This document shows positions 25,207-34,530 of a stretch of DNA of 64,000 nucleotides, piece after piece. Source of the DNA: Rhizobium rhizogenes (GTDB taxonomy: Bacteria; Pseudomonadota; Alphaproteobacteria; Rhizobiales; Rhizobiaceae); the NCBI RefSeq assembly GCF_002005205.3, contig NZ_CP019701.2:1364001-1428000 (forward strand). Reading direction: 5' to 3'. Positions within the stretch are counted from its first letter, which is position 1. Each line of letters opens with the position of its first letter. A program made the position numbers and the translations under genes. Under the pieces are notes generated by a model, which did no database searches, was not told the DNA's origin, and worked only from the letters and a program-made list of their open reading frames with translations.

Positions 25207-25785
25207 TCAGCGAACGTTCCAGAAGGCCCAGTCCGACTTGCCCTTCTGATATTTGTAATGCCGCGAGAAATACGGATTGACCGTCGCCACATATTCGAAC
25301 TCGAAGGTGGTCGCGCTGAGGAACGAAAACAGGGGGCTGTATTTATACCGCCCCGAAATCACGATGACGGCCTCTTCCTCCTTGAAGTTCCCTGCCTTCA
25401 GCATCTTGTCCCAGACGACGTTTTCGGCTGAGCCGAAGAAATGATAGGGCGCGAACTCGGTGACGGCGACGCCACCCACCAGTTTGGCGCTCCGCAGGGT
25501 CAGGTCGAGCTTGTCGGGGTTGAGCGGCTGGCCGGCGTCGATGACGAAGGTTTTCACACCCGTCCTTACCCGCTCCTCAAATTCGGGGAAACGGGCAGAC
25601 CAGCGGGCGGTATTGTCGACGACCGTGACAAAACGGTCGTAACTCAGCCAGCCACGACCGGTCTCGACCATCACCGCCAGAAAGATGATCAGCATCGGCA
25701 ACAGCAGGGAAAATTCCACCGCAGCCACGCCGGAACGCGACCGCATCATGGCGCCGAGGACAGATTTCAGCCGAAAGACCATCAT
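25207..25785 (-). CDS. TadE/TadG-family pseudopilin-like protein
   Basis: This 192-residue protein carries the TadE N-terminal signature: a short basic leader, RSRSGVAAVEFSLLLPMLII with the Glu after the AAV motif, one membrane segment, and then a secreted domain of about 140 residues. Such proteins act as minor pilins or assembly factors of Flp/Tad pili and are processed by a prepilin peptidase. The start overlaps the stop of the preceding gene (ATGATG at 25785/25782), so it is translationally coupled. It is the last of three tad-like genes in one operon. No tadA ATPase, secretin or flp pilin gene is adjacent, so any pilus partners lie elsewhere. Confidence 0.85.
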   Translation of the reverse strand: MMVFRLKSVLGAMMRSRSGVAAVEFSLLLPMLIIFLAVMVETGRGWLSYDRFVTVVDNTARWSARFPEFEERVRTGVKTFVIDAGQPLNPDKLDLTLRSAKLVGGVAVTEFAPYHFFGSAENVVWDKMLKAGNFKEEEAVIVISGRYKYSPLFSFLSATTFEFEYVATVNPYFSRHYKYQKGKSDWAFWNVR

Positions 25786-26321
25786 TCCGTCACCCGAACG
25801 GCGGTGATCGCCAAAGATACGTTCTGCAATTGCGGCTGCTTGCCGCCACCGGGAATCAACAGACGTGTGGTGGGCAGAATGAATCGCCAATTGAAACCGA
25901 GCGCCAGAAGATATTGCCCGGCGCTTCTGTCCGGCGTCTGAAATTTGTTCTCGACCGGGAATGTCAACGGCACGGCGGTGAAATCCGCATCCGGGATCGG
26001 GACGAGCGTGATCTTCATATCCTCGTCCGTCGTGCCAAGCAGGAAGTTCGAGGCGATGACCCGCCTGAATTCAGCTTCGGTAACCGTCGTCTGGCTTGCC
26101 GCTGCCTTGCGCAGAAATTCTCCCCCGGCATTGGCCGCCATTGCCAGATTGAGACTGAACAGCAGCGCCAGACCAACTTCGAAAATACCGAACACCAGCA
26201 GAAAATACACCGGCAGGAGCAGGCCGAACTCGACCGCCGTCGCCGCCCGGATGTCGGCAGCGTAGGAGCTGAACCGGATGCGGCAACGGCGAAGGAACAA
26301 ATCACTTCGGCGCGTCGACAT
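25782..26321 (-). CDS. TadE-family pseudopilin-like protein
   Basis: This 179-residue protein has a basic start (MSTRRSDLFLRRCRIRFSSY) and then the classic TadE segment IRAATAVEFGLLLPVYFLL, where the conserved Glu follows the TAV motif, and a single membrane helix. The remainder is a secreted domain with a predicted strand-rich end. ATG 26321 lies inside the end of the upstream tadG-like gene (20-bp overlap), and its stop overlaps the next gene by a few bases. The three genes are therefore tightly coupled and probably function as one complex. The family is clear; the specific role is inferred from Tad pili. Confidence 0.87.
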   Translation of the reverse strand: MSTRRSDLFLRRCRIRFSSYAADIRAATAVEFGLLLPVYFLLVFGIFEVGLALLFSLNLAMAANAGGEFLRKAAASQTTVTEAEFRRVIASNFLLGTTDEDMKITLVPIPDADFTAVPLTFPVENKFQTPDRSAGQYLLALGFNWRFILPTTRLLIPGGGKQPQLQNVSLAITAVRVTE

Positions 26322-27522
26322 ACTTCACCTCGAACGCCGTGATGATGCCACCGAGACTGTCGCTTTTTCCACCGGCGGCAATCGTCAGCTTGTAGACGGA
26401 GTAGGTATCGACCGTGATCGAATAGCTGCGGCGCTCCCAGAAAACCTTGCCCTTCTGGGCCATTTCAATGATCTTCTTTTCCGAACCCAGCTTCGGGCGC
26501 AGAACCTGCAGGAAGATATCGATGTCGTTGGTGCCGCCATAGGCGTCGTTACGGCCATTGTACCAGACCGAAACCTCATATGTGCCGGGATGCAGTTCCA
26601 CATATTTGAAGATCGAACTGTTGGCATCCCGTCTGCCTGTCCCTTGCCAGTCGCTGTCCAGTTCCACCACATATTTGGTCGGCGGTATCCGGGCGTTTTC
26701 GGCACTCCACTGGGGAGATTTTGCCGGGTCGTCCGGTTGCGGTGAACACGGATTGGCCGCCGGGGATTGTGACGCATCCTTGCCGGTTTCTTTATCCGTC
26801 GGGGAAGTGTCCTGCTGCGAAACGCTGGCGCAGGCAGACCCGGCATCCTTCTGCGGCTCCTCATAGCCCTGCCAGCCGAATTTCTTGCGACATTCGGCAC
26901 TGCTCCAGTCCTGAAGCTCGATACCGGGGCCAGTGCCGCCGTCCCATCCAAGTTCCTCATAGCTGTAGACACCCCAGCAGCCGTTCTTGGTGCTGGGGCT
27001 TTTGCCGAATTTGAGAACCCGCTCCTTGCCATTCAGTATCTCGAACGTGTTGTTGACGATCACCTCGCCATCATGCGGATAGGGAGGAATGCCGTCGCAA
27101 CGGTAAGTCAGCGCGTAATCCATCTGTTCGACATTGAACATGCTGCCCAGCACCGTCCTGTAAGTGAATTTCGCTTCGATATCGGTGGTCAGCCAGTCGA
27201 TCTTCACTTCGCGGCTCACCACCTTCTGCTTGGTGGAGCCGATGAGCGCATCGAACGTATCGAGCACATTTTTGCGGCGCACTTCATCGAGAGGCACATT
27301 CGTGCGGGTCGGTTTCGTCGAGCGCTCGCAGGCCTGCGCGATCACCCGCTTTGACTGGCTGTAATAAGCCAGCGCCCGGCCGCCTTCGAAAAGCAGCCCG
27401 AAGGTGAAAAGAAAGACCGGCATCATCAATGCCGTGATAATCGCGAAATTTGCCCGCCGGTCCTGAAGAAGCGAGCGGAAATGGCGCGTCGACGCCTTCA
27501 ATATTCTTTCAACACACAACAT
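26302..27522 (-). CDS. TadG-like pilus assembly protein
   Basis: This 406-residue protein starts with the Tad signature (LLQDRRANFAIITALMMPVF, membrane segment about residues 28-50) but lacks the TadE glutamate pattern, as in TadG-type proteins. The long extracytoplasmic part has several cysteines (RCDGIPPYP, NGCWGVYSY, AECRKKF, GSACASV, NPCSPQP) and an Asn/Ser/Thr/Pro-rich, low-complexity section near residues 220-270. A strand-rich domain follows (ELHPGTYEVSVWYNGRNDAY). It has no von Willebrand motif that I can see. I used ATG 27522; a TTG at 27528 is also open. It is first of the three-gene tad-like operon, and an AT-rich region upstream probably holds the promoter. Confidence 0.82.
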   Translation of the reverse strand: MLCVERILKASTRHFRSLLQDRRANFAIITALMMPVFLFTFGLLFEGGRALAYYSQSKRVIAQACERSTKPTRTNVPLDEVRRKNVLDTFDALIGSTKQKVVSREVKIDWLTTDIEAKFTYRTVLGSMFNVEQMDYALTYRCDGIPPYPHDGEVIVNNTFEILNGKERVLKFGKSPSTKNGCWGVYSYEELGWDGGTGPGIELQDWSSAECRKKFGWQGYEEPQKDAGSACASVSQQDTSPTDKETGKDASQSPAANPCSPQPDDPAKSPQWSAENARIPPTKYVVELDSDWQGTGRRDANSSIFKYVELHPGTYEVSVWYNGRNDAYGGTNDIDIFLQVLRPKLGSEKKIIEMAQKGKVFWERRSYSITVDTYSVYKLTIAAGGKSDSLGGIITAFEVKYVDAPK

Positions 27523-28062
27523 CTGCAACTATCGCTTTCGTCCAATCGCAACGGATCGTGCCGCCCCCTCCCCAGCCGGACACGCAAAGGCTGCCGCCGG
27601 GCAAGATGCCGGGCCGCAGAAAACAAATTCAGCAAAACCGCTGATGCCGCGATCATGGCGGCGTGACGCGAATGGCGTGGTTCAATCGCATTCGCGAGAC
27701 AAAGATATTTCCCAAGCCGCCAATCAAAGGCCGCCCAATTCCATTCGTTATTCTATATGGCGAATTAAACACCAGATTCGTAAATTAAAGGTCACCCGAA
27801 TACCAAAAATAGTAAGTAAAATCATGTAGTTAAATAAGGTATTCATAATTTATTATAGTCGAAATACTCGATGGAATAGACCGGCTGGATATTCGATGGC
27901 GAATATGATTTTCCCGCCATATCTTTTTCCGGCAAGAGCTGAAACGGCCACATTTTTTTGAGCGTCATGGACAGGCGCCAGCCCCTTTGCCCCTTGTCCC
28001 TGCCGCCAAGCTCGGGCAAAACAGCCCTATCCAATCATGAGACAAACGCCAGGAGATCGAAA
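27523..28062. other. AT-rich divergent intergenic region (tad genes / frmA)
   Basis: This 540-bp stretch has no convincing gene. From about 27690 to 27960 it is unusually AT-rich for the window (for example AAATTAAAGGTCACCCGAAT and TAAATAAGGTATTCATAATT), then returns to normal. It must contain the promoters for both divergent units. No insertion-sequence ends were found. Confidence 0.55.
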
Positions 28063-29190
<1,128 letters not shown>

Positions 29191-29233: not shown

Positions 29234-29374
29234 TGCAAATGTGATCGCCCCGGCCGCCCTGCAGCCGGCGCGATTAACGGGACGGTAAATCTATCGTCGT
29301 AAGCCGATATTACGCGGCGAAGTTGAAAAATCTCTTTCCCCGGCCAAATCATGCCAGACAGCGGAGAGTGACCC

Positions 29375-30214
29375 CTGAAAATCGTACCGATCGACAACGG
29401 AAACCGCGCCGCCGCTGTTACCCTTTTGGCGAAAGGTTTCCCCGAAAAAAGCGAGGCCTTCTGGTCGCGCGGGCTGGCGCTCATCAATGAACACCACCAG
29501 CGCCGGGAACTCGGCGCAATCGGGCAATTGCTGCTGAAGGGCGAGGATGCGGCAGGTGTGCTGCTGACGATCCGCAACCGCCTGCCGGATAGCGGCAGGA
29601 TCGTCGTCAACCTGTCCAGCTGGTATGTCGAACCCTCCTGCCGATGGTTTGCGCCGCGCATGTTGCAGATGGCCTCCTCCGCCGAGGAGGAACTGTTCAC
29701 CGACCTCACCCCCTCTCCCGAAGCCTGCAGGCTGAATGAGCGGCTGGGTTTCCACACGGTGACGGATTGCACGCTGTTTTATCCCCTGCCGCTCACCGCA
29801 CTCCGTCCGGCAGGCGCGCGGCTCAGCCCGCTTGCCGCCATGCCTGCGGATACCCTGCCGGATGCAATGCGCGACATGCTTGAAGATCATGCGCGACTGG
29901 GCTGCATCGTCGCCGTTATGCAGGCGGATGGCCGTCAGCATCCGCTGGTATTTCTAAAGACCACAACCAGAAAACTGCCCTCCGCCCGCTTGATCTATTG
30001 CGAGGACCGGGAGATCGCCCAGAGGCACATATCCGCGATCGCCCGCCATCTTCTTGGCCAGGGCAGGCTTGCCCTCACCATGGCCGCACTGGAGGGTGAA
30101 CGAAACGCCGGCGGATTTGCCGCACATAAATCAGCGCCGATACAAGTAAAAGGCGTATGGAACCCACGATTTATTAACGAAACATACTCAGAGTTGGTGT
30201 TATTGCCACCCTAG
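29375..30214 (+). CDS. Acyltransferase-like (GNAT-type) protein with probable CTG start, first gene of carrier-protein cluster
   Basis: This protein has about 279 residues. The N-terminal half resembles GNAT acyltransferases: a beta-strand KIVPIDNGNRAAAV, the segment LLAKGFPEKSEAFWSRGLAL, and later the strand-turn RIVVNLSSWYVEP and LNERLGFHTVTDCTLFYP. The C-terminal half is unfamiliar. No ATG, GTG or TTG opens the frame early enough: an in-frame TGA at 29369 is followed by CTG at 29375 with GGAGAG eight bases upstream. The next possible start, TTG 29426, has no ribosome site and would delete the first strand. The gene lies 105 bp before an acyl carrier protein gene on the same strand, suggesting it transfers the carrier-bound product. 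Function is inferred. Confidence 0.7.
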   Translation: MKIVPIDNGNRAAAVTLLAKGFPEKSEAFWSRGLALINEHHQRRELGAIGQLLLKGEDAAGVLLTIRNRLPDSGRIVVNLSSWYVEPSCRWFAPRMLQMASSAEEELFTDLTPSPEACRLNERLGFHTVTDCTLFYPLPLTALRPAGARLSPLAAMPADTLPDAMRDMLEDHARLGCIVAVMQADGRQHPLVFLKTTTRKLPSARLIYCEDREIAQRHISAIARHLLGQGRLALTMAALEGERNAGGFAAHKSAPIQVKGVWNPRFINETYSELVLLPP

Positions 30215-30318
30215 GTATTTTAGTGGTGCCTGCACGACCTGACGGAATCTTGGCCTTTACAGAAAAAAGCGCCTTTCCGGGCAGGTTTATGGGAAACACG
30301 GGAAATCGGAGAACAAGC

Positions 30319-30582
30319 ATGCTTGCGGCGAAAAAGAGCGAAATCGACGTTGCTGATACCATCTATTCCTATCTCTCCAACCGCTTCCCCGCCTATGCGC
30401 CCTTTTCCGCCGACACGCTGCTTCTCGAAGGCGGCGTGATCGATTCGCTTGGCTTTCTGGAGCTGATGATCTTTCTCGGCGAGGGTTTCGGCATCATTCT
30501 CGATGACGAGCATTTCACGCCGGAAAATCTCGGCACGCCCGCAGACCTCATCGCCTTCGTCCTCAGGGAACGGAGGAGATGA
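30319..30582 (+). CDS. Acyl carrier protein (phosphopantetheine-binding)
   Basis: This 87-residue carrier protein has the phosphopantetheine attachment motif GGVIDSLGFLELM (Ser about 44) and the downstream helix pattern of ACPs. The start ATG 30319 has GGAG eight bases upstream, and the protein begins MLAAKKSEIDVADTIYSYL. It is not the housekeeping AcpP, which is acidic and has a different DSL context. Its stop overlaps the start of the AMP ligase gene (ATGA), so the two are translationally coupled and the ligase is the likely loading enzyme. It belongs to a four-gene operon with an acyltransferase-like protein and a PLP decarboxylase. Confidence 0.9.
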   Translation: MLAAKKSEIDVADTIYSYLSNRFPAYAPFSADTLLLEGGVIDSLGFLELMIFLGEGFGIILDDEHFTPENLGTPADLIAFVLRERRR

Positions 30583-32111
30583 CACCCCATTTCCTGCTGC
30601 ACCATCTTCTTGCCGCACGCGCGGCAAGCGACGATCAGGCCCTCGTTCATAAAGAACAATCGCTGAGTTATCGCGAATTCGCCGCAGCGGCGGCGCGATG
30701 CGCGGCGGCCCTGCAGCAGGCCGGCGCGAAACGCGGCGACCGCGTCGTCATCTATCTGCCACGCGGCATCGAGGAATGCTGGTCGATCTTCGGTGTCAGC
30801 ATGGCGTCCGGTGTTTTCGTTCCGGTCAATGCGCTGCTGAAATCGCAGCAGATCCGCCATATCGTCGCGGATAGCGGCGCGAAAATCGTCATCAGCAACA
30901 GGGCAATGCAGGCGGAACTGGATGCTGCGTTGCAAGGGCTGACCGATGTGACCCTGTTGCTGGCGGAAGATATCGAAGGCCACACAAGCATGCCTGCCCG
31001 CCCTTCGGCGGCAATCGGCGAAGACCTCGCCGCCATCCTCTATACATCGGGCTCCACCGGCTCGCCCAAGGGCGTGATGCTGTCGCACCGCAATCTTCTG
31101 GCCGGCGCGCGCATCGTGCGCACCTATCTGGAGATCACGGCAAGCGACCGCATTCTTTCCCTCCTGCCCTTCAGCTTCGATTACGGTCTGAACCAGCTGC
31201 TGACGGCGGTGGAACAGGGCGCGACCACGGTCATCTCCACCTTCCGGCTGGGCGACGATATCGTCCGCGATCTGCGCGACCATGCCGTCACAGGTCTTGC
31301 CGGCGTGCCGACCGTCTGGGCAATCCTGACCAGAGCGGCCCCGTCGCTGGCAAAGACGCCACTGCCGCATCTGCGCTACATTACCAATTCCGGCGGGCGT
31401 GTGCCGCAGGAAACCGTAAAAGCGCTGCGCGAAAAGCTGCCGGACACGAAAATCTACCTGATGTATGGTCTGACCGAGGCTTTCCGTTCCACCTTCCTGC
31501 CACCGGAAGAAATCGACAGCCGGCCGACCTCCATCGGCAAGGCTATCCCGGAATGCGAGATCTTCATCGTCACCGACAAGGGACAGCGGGCAAAACCGGG
31601 CGAGCCCGGCATTCTCGTCCATCGTGGCCCGACGGTTTCGCTGGGTTACTGGAACCGGCCGGAAGACACGGCGAAAGTGCTGCGTCCCCATCCCTTCATC
31701 CCGGCGGCACTGGGCGGCGAAACCGTCTGCTATTCCGGCGATCTGGCCGTGGAAGACGAAGACGGTTTCTTCAGCTTCGTTGCCCGCGACGATGCGATGA
31801 TCAAATCGTCCGGCTATCGCATCAGCCCGACAGAGGTGGAGGAAAGCCTGATGTCGACAGGGCTGTTCCAGCAGGTCGCCGTCATCGGTCTGCCGGACCC
31901 CTTTGCCGGTGAAAAGGTACATGCGGTCGCAACCGCCGCCAATGAGACCACCGACGTTTCAGCAGCGCTGAAGAAGGCCGCCGAAATGCTCGCCCCCTTC
32001 ATGATCCCGCGCGCCATCGAACTGGTCGACCGGCTGCCGGTCACCGCCAATGGCAAGGTGGATTACCGCGCGCTGGTGCGCGAACGGACGGACAATGTCG
32101 CCCACGGATAA
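30579..32111 (+). CDS. AMP-forming acyl/aminoacyl ligase (ANL superfamily)
   Basis: This 510-residue adenylating enzyme probably activates a carboxylic or amino acid and loads it onto the neighbouring carrier protein. Motifs: ATP-binding AILYTSGSTGSPKGVMLSHR (about residues 150-170), YLMYGLTEAFRSTF, the hinge YSGDLAVEDEDGFFSFVARD with IKSSGYRISPTEVEE, and the catalytic lysine in LPVTANGKVDYRAL near the C-terminus. The pattern is close to the ligases found with exosortase A (PEP-CTERM) clusters, but no exosortase gene is visible here. It overlaps the acp gene by 4 bp at its start and the decarboxylase gene by 17 bp at its end. Substrate unknown. Confidence 0.9.
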   Translation: MTPHFLLHHLLAARAASDDQALVHKEQSLSYREFAAAAARCAAALQQAGAKRGDRVVIYLPRGIEECWSIFGVSMASGVFVPVNALLKSQQIRHIVADSGAKIVISNRAMQAELDAALQGLTDVTLLLAEDIEGHTSMPARPSAAIGEDLAAILYTSGSTGSPKGVMLSHRNLLAGARIVRTYLEITASDRILSLLPFSFDYGLNQLLTAVEQGATTVISTFRLGDDIVRDLRDHAVTGLAGVPTVWAILTRAAPSLAKTPLPHLRYITNSGGRVPQETVKALREKLPDTKIYLMYGLTEAFRSTFLPPEEIDSRPTSIGKAIPECEIFIVTDKGQRAKPGEPGILVHRGPTVSLGYWNRPEDTAKVLRPHPFIPAALGGETVCYSGDLAVEDEDGFFSFVARDDAMIKSSGYRISPTEVEESLMSTGLFQQVAVIGLPDPFAGEKVHAVATAANETTDVSAALKKAAEMLAPFMIPRAIELVDRLPVTANGKVDYRALVRERTDNVAHG

Positions 32112-33372
32112 AACCCAGAGCCACGGCCCGGCCCTTGCGGCTGCGCAATTTGCGGTCACTGACAATGATCTCGTCATTGGCGGGCTTGCGGTGCGCGATA
32201 TCGTCGCCCAAACCGGAACGCCGTGCTTCCTCTATGATGCAAGCGCCATGCGCCGCGCCTATCGGAGCCTTGAAACGGCGCTCTCGGGCTTTGCCGATAT
32301 CTATTATTCGGTGAAGGCCAATCCCCTGCCCGCCATTATCGCGCTCTTCCGGCAGCAGGGCGCGGGTGCAGAAATCGCCTCCGTTGGCGAATATCGCGCC
32401 GCCATCAAGGCTGGCGTCGCACCTGAGAACATCATCTTCGCCGGCCCCGGCAAGGGCATGGCCGAATTGCGCGAGGTGATCGAGGGCGGCATCGGCGAAA
32501 TCCATATTGAAAGCGCCGAGGAAATCGCCCGCATCGAGGAGATCGGCAAACCGGTCAAAGCCTCGATCCGCATCAACCCCGTGCCGGATACTCAAGCCGG
32601 CGCCATGCGCATGGGCGGCAAGGCCACCGCTTTTGGTTTCGACGAGGAAGAGCTGGAAAACGTCCTGCCGCTTTTCAGGGACGCCAGACATATTGATCTC
32701 GTCGGCGTGCACATCTATGGCGGCACGCAGATCCTCGACGCCGACATGCTTGTCTCCCAATGGCGACACGCCATTTCCCTTGCCGCACGCATGGCGCAAA
32801 TGCTGGGCAGACCGCTTGAAACCATCGATCTCGGCGGTGGCCTCGGCATCCCCTATTTCGCCGGGGAAACGCCGCTTGATCTTGCAACGGTCAGCGCCGC
32901 CATTCCCGATCTCAAGGCGCTTGTGCAAGCGCATCCGCTGATAACCGACGCCCATATCATCGTCGAACCCGGCCGCTTCCTCGCCGGCCCCGGCGGCCTC
33001 TATGTGGCGGAAGTAAATTCGGTGAAAAGCTCACGCGGCACCACCTTCGTGGTGACGGATGGCGGTATGCACCACCATCTGGCGGCCTCGGGCAATCTCG
33101 GCCAGATCGTCAAGCGCAACTATCCCATCGTCGCGCCCGCCAAGATGCAGGCAGATCACGACGAGACAGCAACCATCGTCGGTCCGCTCTGCACACCGCT
33201 CGACACACTGGCCCGCAATGCGGCTCTGCCGAAACTGAAGACCGGTGACTTACTCGCCATCCTGCAATCGGGCGCCTATGGCGCCAGCGCCAGCCCTGCG
33301 GGTTTTCTCAGCCATGCGGCAGCGAAGGAAGTGCTGGTGGAGGATGGTGTGTTTGAGGCGATCGGACGCTGA
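32095..33372 (+). CDS. PLP-dependent decarboxylase (fold type III, DapDC/ODC-like)
   Basis: The 425-residue enzyme belongs to the alanine-racemase-fold decarboxylases. The PLP lysine lies in YYSVKANPLPAII (about residue 80), with the usual HIYGGTQILD, ETIDLGGGLGIPYF and HIIVEPGRFLAGPGG blocks. The active-site cysteine is in VGPLCTPLDTLARN, and GAYGASASPAGF comes near the end. It is not LysA-specific: the closest described group is the decarboxylases next to exosortase-A-type acyl ligases and the carrier-linked enzyme BtrK of butirosin synthesis. ATG 32095 overlaps the ligase gene by 17 bp. Because it is coupled to an ACP and ligase, its substrate may be an aminoacyl-ACP. The convergent pabB stop abuts its own stop. 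Confidence 0.9.
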   Translation: MSPTDKTQSHGPALAAAQFAVTDNDLVIGGLAVRDIVAQTGTPCFLYDASAMRRAYRSLETALSGFADIYYSVKANPLPAIIALFRQQGAGAEIASVGEYRAAIKAGVAPENIIFAGPGKGMAELREVIEGGIGEIHIESAEEIARIEEIGKPVKASIRINPVPDTQAGAMRMGGKATAFGFDEEELENVLPLFRDARHIDLVGVHIYGGTQILDADMLVSQWRHAISLAARMAQMLGRPLETIDLGGGLGIPYFAGETPLDLATVSAAIPDLKALVQAHPLITDAHIIVEPGRFLAGPGGLYVAEVNSVKSSRGTTFVVTDGGMHHHLAASGNLGQIVKRNYPIVAPAKMQADHDETATIVGPLCTPLDTLARNAALPKLKTGDLLAILQSGAYGASASPAGFLSHAAAKEVLVEDGVFEAIGR

Positions 33373-34530
33373 TCACACCCGCAGCAACCTGTCCCCCACC
33401 GCGAATTTCGATTTCAGCAAACACTCGTCATATTCGGCTTCCGCGACGGAATCGAAGACGATGCCGCCCCCGACATTAAAGACGGCACGACCATCATCGA
33501 ACAGGCTGAGTGTGCGGATCGCTACTGAGAACCGCATGTCACCGTCAGGGGATATAAAGCCGATCGCGCCGCAATAGGCGTCGCGTGGGCCAGCTTCCAG
33601 CTCGCGCAGAATTTTCATCGCCCACATTTTCGGTGCGCCGGTGACGGAGCCGCAGGGAAACAGCGCGGCGAAGATGTTTTCCACCGTCACCTCGGACAGA
33701 AGCTTCGCCCTGACATGGCTGACCATCTGGTGAACGGTGGGATAGGTCTCGATATCGAACAGCCGCGGCACATGAAGGCTACCGACCTCGGTGATACGGG
33801 AAATATCGTTGCGCAGCAGATCGACGATCATGCGGTTTTCAGCCAGCGTCTTTTCATCCGCCAGCATCGCCGCAATGATTGCCCGGTCCTCCTCCGCATC
33901 CGCCCCGCGCGGTGTCGTTCCCTTCATCGGATGGGTTTCGATGAAACCGTCCCTGTCGACCGAAAAAAACAGTTCCGGTGAGCGCGACAGGATGACCGGG
34001 CCGCCAAGATCGACCAGCGCGCCGTATTTCACCGGTTGCCGCTCGATCAGCGACCAGAAGGCGGTGAGCGGGTCGCCACTCCAGCGAGCGGTGACGGGCA
34101 TGGTCAGATTGCCCTGGTAACAGTCACCACGACGCAGATGGTCGTGCAAGCGCGCAAAGCGCTTTTGGTATTCTTGGAGCGTCCAGGCCGGCACGGGATT
34201 GGAGAGGAATGCATCCGCATCCGGCAGCGCGTCAGGGCGCGCAAACCGCCCCGCATCCGGCTGTGGGCCGGAAAAGACGCCGAAGGTCAGAAACGGCACG
34301 TTGCGAGGCTCGGCGGCAAAAGGCGCAAGCTTTGGTTCGAACAGGAAACCCGCCTCGTAGGACATATAGCCGGCAAGATATTTACCGGCCCGGCGCAGCT
34401 GTTCCATGCGCTTCAGCGCGGCGAAAAACGCCTCAGGCTCATCCGCGACGATGATCTCTTCCGGCTCGGCGAAGGCTGTCACCGTGCCGGTCGTGTCATC
34501 CCGGAAAAGAACGTAAGGCGCATGTGCCAA
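33373..34530 (-). CDS. pabB: Aminodeoxychorismate synthase component I (TTG start)
   Basis: PabB converts chorismate to 4-amino-4-deoxychorismate with ammonia from PabA, for folate synthesis. The 385-residue protein has the chorismate-binding core: YQGNLTMPVTARW, SRSPELFF, THPMKGTTPRG, LRNDISRITEVGSL, FPCGSVTGAPKMWAMKILRE and the end GGGIVFDSVAEAEYDECLLK. The best start is TTG 34530 (MAHAPYVLFRDD...); no in-frame ATG occurs before conserved sequence. No pabC-like domain is attached. It is convergent with the decarboxylase gene, with no untranslated gap between the stops. The TTG start is the only reason for lower confidence in the 5' end. Confidence 0.92.
   Translation of the reverse strand: MAHAPYVLFRDDTTGTVTAFAEPEEIIVADEPEAFFAALKRMEQLRRAGKYLAGYMSYEAGFLFEPKLAPFAAEPRNVPFLTFGVFSGPQPDAGRFARPDALPDADAFLSNPVPAWTLQEYQKRFARLHDHLRRGDCYQGNLTMPVTARWSGDPLTAFWSLIERQPVKYGALVDLGGPVILSRSPELFFSVDRDGFIETHPMKGTTPRGADAEEDRAIIAAMLADEKTLAENRMIVDLLRNDISRITEVGSLHVPRLFDIETYPTVHQMVSHVRAKLLSEVTVENIFAALFPCGSVTGAPKMWAMKILRELEAGPRDAYCGAIGFISPDGDMRFSVAIRTLSLFDDGRAVFNVGGGIVFDSVAEAEYDECLLKSKFAVGDRLLRV

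Follow-up and report, generated by a model that had tools for sequence, protein, structure and literature searches.

What product, and for what acceptor, is made by a ligase and a decarboxylase that are encoded together with a small carrier protein of their own is the question raised by four consecutive genes in a 64,000-nucleotide window of Rhizobium rhizogenes DNA (positions 1364001-1428000 of contig C1, NZ_CP019701.2, of a 5.48-Mb genome whose closest named relatives are mostly Agrobacterium). The initial annotation, made from the letters of this window, placed at 29375-33372 four same-strand genes, the last three overlapping, for a GNAT-like protein, a carrier with a DSL motif, an ANL ligase and a fold-III pyridoxal phosphate (PLP) decarboxylase. 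We confirmed the coordinates and both overlaps (4 bp between the carrier and ligase genes, 17 bp between the ligase and decarboxylase genes), and profile scores, motifs and a predicted fold bear out the four gene types. The four genes are a co-inherited unit, hereafter the cassette, and we consider it rather probable that they encode one route in which an amino acid is loaded on the carrier, decarboxylated there and transferred to an acceptor by the GNAT-like protein.

Co-inheritance of the four genes

An alignment of the GNAT-like protein was used to find homologous loci, and the best 80 of 200 confirmed stretches were analyzed; the counts from these named loci and those from the genome samples given below overlap. 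Ligase and decarboxylase were present in 29 of the 80 loci, and all 29 also held the carrier, in identical order and strand, so that the genes stay together in relatives rather than separating, as the pathway idea of the initial annotation needed. The record titles of the 29 complete loci include Agrobacterium, Rhizobium, Shinella, Devosia, Bradyrhizobium, Reyranella, Phreatobacter and others, and in a further locus (L050) the GNAT, carrier and ligase genes are present as far as the contig end.

Within the genus, the GNAT (E <= 1e-15) and the decarboxylase (E <= 1e-60) were detected in the identical 24 of 39 genomes, the cassette GNAT being the sole match to its family in its own genome at that threshold. 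The PabB-like gene that flanks the cassette was found in all 15 genomes without it, and in 8 of these the dehydrogenase of the other flank directly adjoins the PabB-like gene, at 88-265 bp, a distance that is 4183 bp in the window; for the remaining seven, no dehydrogenase was found within the 9 kb examined. Because the same 24 genomes hold both genes, and because the flanks adjoin in 8 of the 15 cassette-free genomes, we conclude that the cassette is gained or lost as a unit. In wider samples, the decarboxylase was detected at E <= 1e-60 in 13 of 247 genomes of a family sample, and the ligase at E <= 1e-110 in 24 of 397 genomes of an order sample, with at most three candidates scored per genome. 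The 25 places found in the order sample comprise 16 full four-gene sets, one set cut by a contig end, one locus of exopolysaccharide type (G128), one ligase-decarboxylase pair without GNAT (G621) and six loci of a single genus that are considered below. The ratio of nonsynonymous to synonymous substitution rates was 0.00-0.20 across 16 comparisons of the cassette genes with four relatives, computed for the carrier from two codons upstream of its ATG.

Gene order differs in two Rhizobiaceae loci, L018 (7887-12071, G232) and L019 (7844-11915, G112), where it is carrier-ligase-decarboxylase-GNAT, with the GNAT last rather than first.

Active sites and the proposed route

The best single-domain match of the ligase among solved structures is VinN (212 bits; the 325 bits of LgrA are the sum of two domains, 144 and 179). 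As the full-length query gave LgrA alignments only, the VinN alignment was taken from ligase segment 190-336, where VinN ranks first. In it, D201, S271 and R303 align with VinN chain positions 246, 315 and 347, which we read, by a constant offset of 16, as Asp230, Ser299 and Arg331, residues to which the available part of the bolagladin paper (PMC7756342) ascribes roles in substrate holding. The ligase thus carries equivalents of all three VinN residues for acidic amino acids. D201 and R303 are present in 77 of 77 aligned ligase rows, with Ser (70 rows) or Thr (7 rows) at position 271 (the ligase and decarboxylase alignments include duplicate rows for some genes, as with L149 and L156). These residues suggest that the ligase is built for an acidic amino acid activated at its side-chain carboxyl. 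No D-alanylation system of the Dlt type was recognized, as the ligase scored 186.3 bits against a cut-off of 559.85 for the DltA model (TIGR01734) and the carrier 20.2 against 68 for the DltC model, DltB lying outside this search.

For the decarboxylase, the best solved match is BtrK (274 bits, versus 177 for the best diaminopimelate decarboxylase). Its motif GPLCTPLD corresponds to GPLCTPED in BtrK and to GP-CE in the three diaminopimelate decarboxylase chains shown; the PLP lysine and the BtrK-type Cys-Thr-Pro-x-Asp are both present, and the Glu of the diaminopimelate type is absent. Cys-Thr was found in 71 of 73 aligned rows, the other two being genes of the same genome, named by motif and reading: a separate lysA-like gene with CETGD, next to an argH-like gene, and a separate ornithine-decarboxylase-like gene with CDSAD. 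Identity with diaminopimelate decarboxylase (LysA) was rejected on the Cys-Thr motif, a TIGR01048 score of 269.7 bits under the cut-off of 297.9 and the separate lysA-like gene. VinO and BtrK are reported, in the parts of the papers available, to act on a carrier-bound amino acid (PMC11284099, PMC7857480), and from its BtrK-type residues the cassette enzyme looks suited to a carrier-tethered acidic amino acid.

The match of the carrier to PF00550 is weak (14.0 bits against a cut-off of 20.8), and its best NCBIfam model is AmcB-like (37.7 bits, below the cut-off of 80). OlsHI- and AmcB-type identities were both rejected, the NCBIfam scores being under the cut-offs.

The GNAT-like protein had no NCBIfam match at E 0.01 and no Pfam match near cut-off, and it was assigned because of its predicted fold: the model (predicted local distance difference test score, pLDDT, 94.8; predicted template modeling score, pTM, 0.91) has two GNAT folds in one chain, and its structure matches are tandem GNATs. 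W83, H172, G260 and E273 are kept in 36 of 36 aligned sequences, and in R90-x-x-A93 of the N-terminal domain position 93 is Ala in 32 and Gly in 3 of the 36. A Bll0957-type amino acid:[carrier protein] ligase shares the locus with the GNAT homologue in 34 of the 80 loci. A GNAT family that was unrecognized by Pfam in the four members scanned is in this way tied to two unrelated routes of loading amino acids on carriers. Both carrier systems stand side by side in Shinella yambaruensis (NZ_JALJCK010000002.1), where the cassette homologue L048 and a second GNAT homologue, L054, lie about 17 kb apart, the latter in a locus with a Bll0957-type ligase homologue (49% identical). Another such homologue (48% identity; G000:C1:2366651-2367511, L168) lies in the genome of the window, about 0.97 Mb from the cassette.

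The activation, decarboxylation and transfer reading of the initial annotation gains from the co-inherited unit and from the VinN- and BtrK-type residues. Computation shows the unit and how it is conserved, the alignment of active-site residues, the predicted folds and the neighbouring genes; we infer the three steps, the amino acid and the acceptor, including decarboxylation on the carrier and the transfer role of the GNAT. The ligase would adenylate an acidic alpha-amino acid, most probably L-aspartate or L-glutamate, at its side-chain carboxyl, with D201 holding the alpha-amino group and S271 and R303 the alpha-carboxyl, and would load it on the phosphopantetheine of the carrier. The PLP enzyme would then remove the exposed alpha-carboxyl, leaving a beta-alanyl-S-carrier from Asp or a gamma-aminobutyryl-S-carrier from Glu. 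Finally, the tandem GNAT would probably pass the omega-aminoacyl group from the carrier to an amine or hydroxyl on an acceptor whose synthesis depends on other genes; in some relatives this acceptor is probably a glycan of the cell surface or a precursor of it. Loading and decarboxylation on the carrier, for which the residues and relatives of known chemistry speak, appear highly probable; transfer by the GNAT, suggested by its fold, by the neighbouring genes and by the absence of any other releasing enzyme from the cassette, is the likelier role of that protein with less assurance.

The nearest precedents for loading and decarboxylation are VinN/VinL/VinO, BolO/BolC/BolN and BtrJ/BtrI/BtrK, and for the GNAT step SbzB/SbzG or SbzK/SbzC. 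The vicenistatin (VinN-VinL-VinO) and bolagladin (BolO-BolC-BolN) sets resemble the cassette, in the portions of the papers available, in having a ligase with Asp, Ser and Arg, a standalone carrier and a PLP decarboxylase, which in the case of VinO works on the tethered amino acid and is proposed to do so in the case of BolN, but they feed a polyketide or peptide synthase in a large cluster, whereas the cassette consists of four genes including a tandem GNAT. In butirosin synthesis (BtrJ-BtrI-BtrK), which supplies the closest solved decarboxylase with its Cys-Thr, the group is handed to the aminoglycoside by further enzymes. BtrI has 87 residues according to the part of PMC7857480 available, the same length as the cassette carrier. 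In the SB-203208 system, the available text of PMC6331615 describes SbzC and SbzI as GNATs taking groups in vitro from a carrier loaded by an adenylate-forming enzyme; SbzB-SbzG/SbzK-SbzC thus shares with the cassette an adenylating enzyme, a carrier and a GNAT, which in that system moves an aminoacyl group from the carrier to an acceptor in vitro, but has no decarboxylase in that step. The Bll0957-type clusters have a GNAT homologue in the locus and, in the representative L064, a carrier protein; they differ in their seryl-tRNA-synthetase-like loader, the absence of such a decarboxylase and many extra enzymes. Each step therefore has a precedent, and a four-gene unit combining them did not turn up in the literature searched: among Creative Commons-licensed papers in PubMed Central we recognized none, by title and opening of the abstract, that describes it, and TIGR03098, TIGR03099 and related phrases returned no papers there. 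Carrier-bound decarboxylation of an acidic amino acid, known from antibiotic pathways, would here be a four-gene unit of ordinary soil- and plant-associated bacteria, present in 24 of the 39 genus genomes.

Several observations weigh against the route as proposed. The ligase and the decarboxylase both fall below the cut-offs of their best NCBIfam models (TIGR03098, exosortase A-associated ligase, 574.7 bits against 592.35; TIGR03099, exosortase A-associated decarboxylase, 419.5 against 478.45), and the residue equivalent to VinN Lys330 is Phe, with Asp and Glu not distinguishable as substrates from sequence. Six of the 25 order-sample places, all of one genus, have carrier and ligase without an adjoining GNAT; three of them are carrier-ligase-decarboxylase sets and three lack the adjoining decarboxylase as well. 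A GNAT homologue lies elsewhere in four of the six genomes (in G644 inside its other, complete set) and none was found in two, so the GNAT is not indispensable. Neither partner system was detected in 17 of the 80 GNAT loci at the thresholds used, some of which are short contigs, and in one of the 24 genus genomes with the set (G288) the GNAT match is split in two pieces. Nor is there a constant flank gene, no family outside the cassette occurring in more than 7 of 24 sequences (23 loci and the window), and no biochemistry on these cassette proteins was found in the literature searched.

L157 and L161 are carrier-ligase pairs without adjoining decarboxylase, in whose genomes a TIGR03099-like decarboxylase lies on another contig (G481:C3:361490 and G578:C29:55280).

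The last step might run in the opposite sense, the GNAT using an acyl-CoA (coenzyme A) or acyl-carrier to cap the amine of the omega-aminoacyl carrier, with other enzymes releasing the product. Precedents exist in the available parts of the sources: in vicenistatin synthesis the decarboxylated aminoacyl carrier is next aminoacylated by VinM (PMC11284099), N-acylation of a beta-alanyl carrier is proposed for bolagladin (PMC7756342), and most GNATs use CoA-linked substrates (PMC6331615). The GNAT is, however, the sole candidate releasing enzyme in the cassette. Moreover, its R90-x-x-A93 is without the glycine usual in the CoA-binding loop motif of GNATs, and we regard capping as unlikely. Far less probable still is that a free-standing decarboxylase of diaminopimelate, ornithine or lysine merely neighbours a fatty-acid ligase, with no joint pathway; the two superfamilies are large and contain such members, but the co-inheritance of the genes, the BtrK-type Cys-Thr and VinN-type residues, and the separate lysA-like and ornithine-decarboxylase-like genes of the genome all speak against it.

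Exosortase systems and the acceptor

The names of the best NCBIfam models make the cassette look like part of an exosortase A (XrtA) system. The initial annotation pointed out that the window holds no exosortase; none was detected in the whole genome either, in which PF09721 had no match (PEP-CTERM proteins and nonribosomal peptide synthetases lay outside the genome-wide search), so the exosortase that marks an XrtA/PEP-CTERM locus was not detected. PF09721 was likewise matched in 0 of 39 other genomes, 30 of them reached through loci with the cassette or a cut copy, one that of L060 and eight family genomes with related genes. Of 299 genomes sampled from the phylum, 18 passed the TIGR03099 cut-off and 17 of these 18 have PF09721 (lists cross-read by hand); in the exception, G128 (L020), glycosyltransferases and a polysaccharide deacetylase accompany the GNAT, ligase, decarboxylase and carrier. 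Of nine over-cut-off loci of exosortase-bearing genomes, all had the decarboxylase, 8 the ligase, 7 a DS-motif carrier and none a GNAT homologue, one such homologue lying elsewhere in one of the nine genomes (G784); among five below-cut-off loci, one (L212) had a GNAT. In these 14 exosortase-type or neighbouring loci, Asp and Arg are shared by all 12 ligases found, in which position 271 is Ser in 9, Thr in 2 and Ala in 1, and Cys-Thr by all 14 decarboxylases. A FastTree decarboxylase tree, rooted on the lysA-like and ornithine-decarboxylase-like genes of the genome and with several low inner supports, separates two clades. One (support 0.938) joins the cassette genes to L018, L019, L026-L028 and the GNAT-less genus; the other (0.963) unites L020-L023 and L024-L025 with the exosortase-type genes. 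The cassette thus resembles the TIGR03098/TIGR03099 pair in its best models and in the shared Asp/Arg and Cys-Thr, but differs in scoring below both cut-offs, in its separate branch, in the lack of a detected exosortase and in the extra GNAT. The model names, and the ligase, decarboxylase and carrier of the nine loci, would agree with the cassette being a displaced part of an XrtA exopolysaccharide locus; given the separate branch, the GNAT-free exosortase loci and PF09721 undetected in this and 39 other genomes as against 17 of 18, we hold it to be very improbable.

As for the acceptor, the cassette of Shinella lacus (L045) is surrounded by two genes each for uridine diphosphate (UDP)-sugar dehydrogenases and for glycosyltransferases, and by single genes for a polysaccharide deacetylase, a flippase-type protein, an alpha/beta hydrolase and a sugar-transfer ATP-grasp protein, and L048 has most of these flank families. 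Upstream of the Devosia crocina cassette (L049) lie four glycosyltransferases, a flippase-type protein and a sugar transferase adjoining the GNAT, and a glycosyltransferase-2 family member stands farther off in L041, L042 and L047. Four flank families are common to more than one lineage group: a short-chain dehydrogenase (f4), glycosyltransferase 2 (f12), a LacI regulator (f42) and a polysaccharide flippase-type protein (f43). Two further families are shared with L060, of which one L049 member scanned is a methyltransferase. Among more distant sets, a deacetylase gene stands next to the GNAT of L018, and families of deacetylases and glycosyltransferases are common to L020-L023; the carrier was found in L018, L020 and L021 and not in L022 and L023. 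With the cassette and the distant sets lying among polysaccharide genes in these loci, the most probable acceptor in some lineages is a glycan or a glycan precursor.

Against such an acceptor, L053 (Phreatobacter) and L055 (Shinella granuli) have no polysaccharide genes among the flank genes that were scanned, and the Agrobacterium flanks read, by eye, as unrelated household genes; a glycan acceptor in Agrobacterium would have to be made at another genomic place. The initial suggestion of a stand-alone pathway accordingly holds in Agrobacterium by its flanks, but two Shinella loci and the Devosia locus have the cassette amid polysaccharide genes. The same flanks favor a variant in which the product is a diffusible metabolite, such as a beta-alanyl or gamma-aminobutyric acid (GABA) amide of an amino acid or polyamine, rather than a glycan. 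Against it speak the cassettes amid glycosyltransferase, flippase-type, sugar transferase or UDP-sugar dehydrogenase genes in L045, L048 and L049, the polysaccharide deacetylase family in both L045 and L048, and the related sets L018 and L020-L023 beside a deacetylase family (L020 also with glycosyltransferases); this variant is quite conceivable, at less than an even chance. A wider proposal, which we offer only tentatively, is that the cassette is a minimal, exosortase-free form of the exosortase A carrier/ligase/decarboxylase set and would explain the function of that set: making beta-alanyl- or GABA-carrier for a surface glycan or its precursor, in a Gram-negative system comparable in logic to the D-alanylation of teichoic acids, where the GNAT family would serve aminoacyl carriers specifically; it is made more probable by the cassettes inside the Shinella and Devosia polysaccharide loci. 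The cassette is small enough to be rebuilt in a test tube, and therefore offers a direct way to ask what is produced by the ligase and decarboxylase genes beside exosortases.

In L041, a FemAB-like GNAT-domain protein (PF13480; 13984-15105) is encoded directly after the cassette on the opposite strand, and its family is common to L041, L042 and L047.

Gene starts and surroundings

Features of the cassette, in positions of the window
Feature	Position	Strand	Remark
GGAGAG Shine-Dalgarno-like sequence	29363..29368	+	before the CTG start; GGAGAG or GGGAG in 11 relatives examined
Tandem-GNAT protein, 279 aa, CTG start	29375..30214	+	proposed carrier-dependent aminoacyl transferase, from the predicted model
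Standalone carrier protein, 87 aa, DSL phosphopantetheine site	30319..30582	+	weak PF00550 match, DSL motif
ANL ligase, 510 aa, TIGR03098-like	30579..32111	+	D201, S271, R303 align with VinN D230, S299, R331
Fold-III PLP decarboxylase, 425 aa, TIGR03099-like, BtrK-type C366-T367	32095..33372	+	

The GNAT gene probably starts at the CTG at which it was first read: its frame is closed upstream by a TGA at 29369, and among the 11 Agrobacterium and Rhizobium loci examined the corresponding codon reads CTG in 9 and GTG in the other 2. Database versions of the protein, of 262 and 246 aa, begin downstream of this CTG. The end of the GNAT gene is separated by 104 bp from the carrier ATG, and an alternative earlier ATG of the decarboxylase is possible at 32050. 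Scans for promoter-like sequences (1 found, 1.1 expected), terminator-like sequences (7 found, 4.3 expected) and repeats were uninformative.

The cassette is flanked by a class III alcohol dehydrogenase-like gene that ends at 29190 and by the convergent PabB-like gene (33373-34530), both named by eye. Farther upstream, three consecutive genes on the minus strand (25207-27528) resemble, also by eye, those for TadE/TadG-type pilus assembly proteins.

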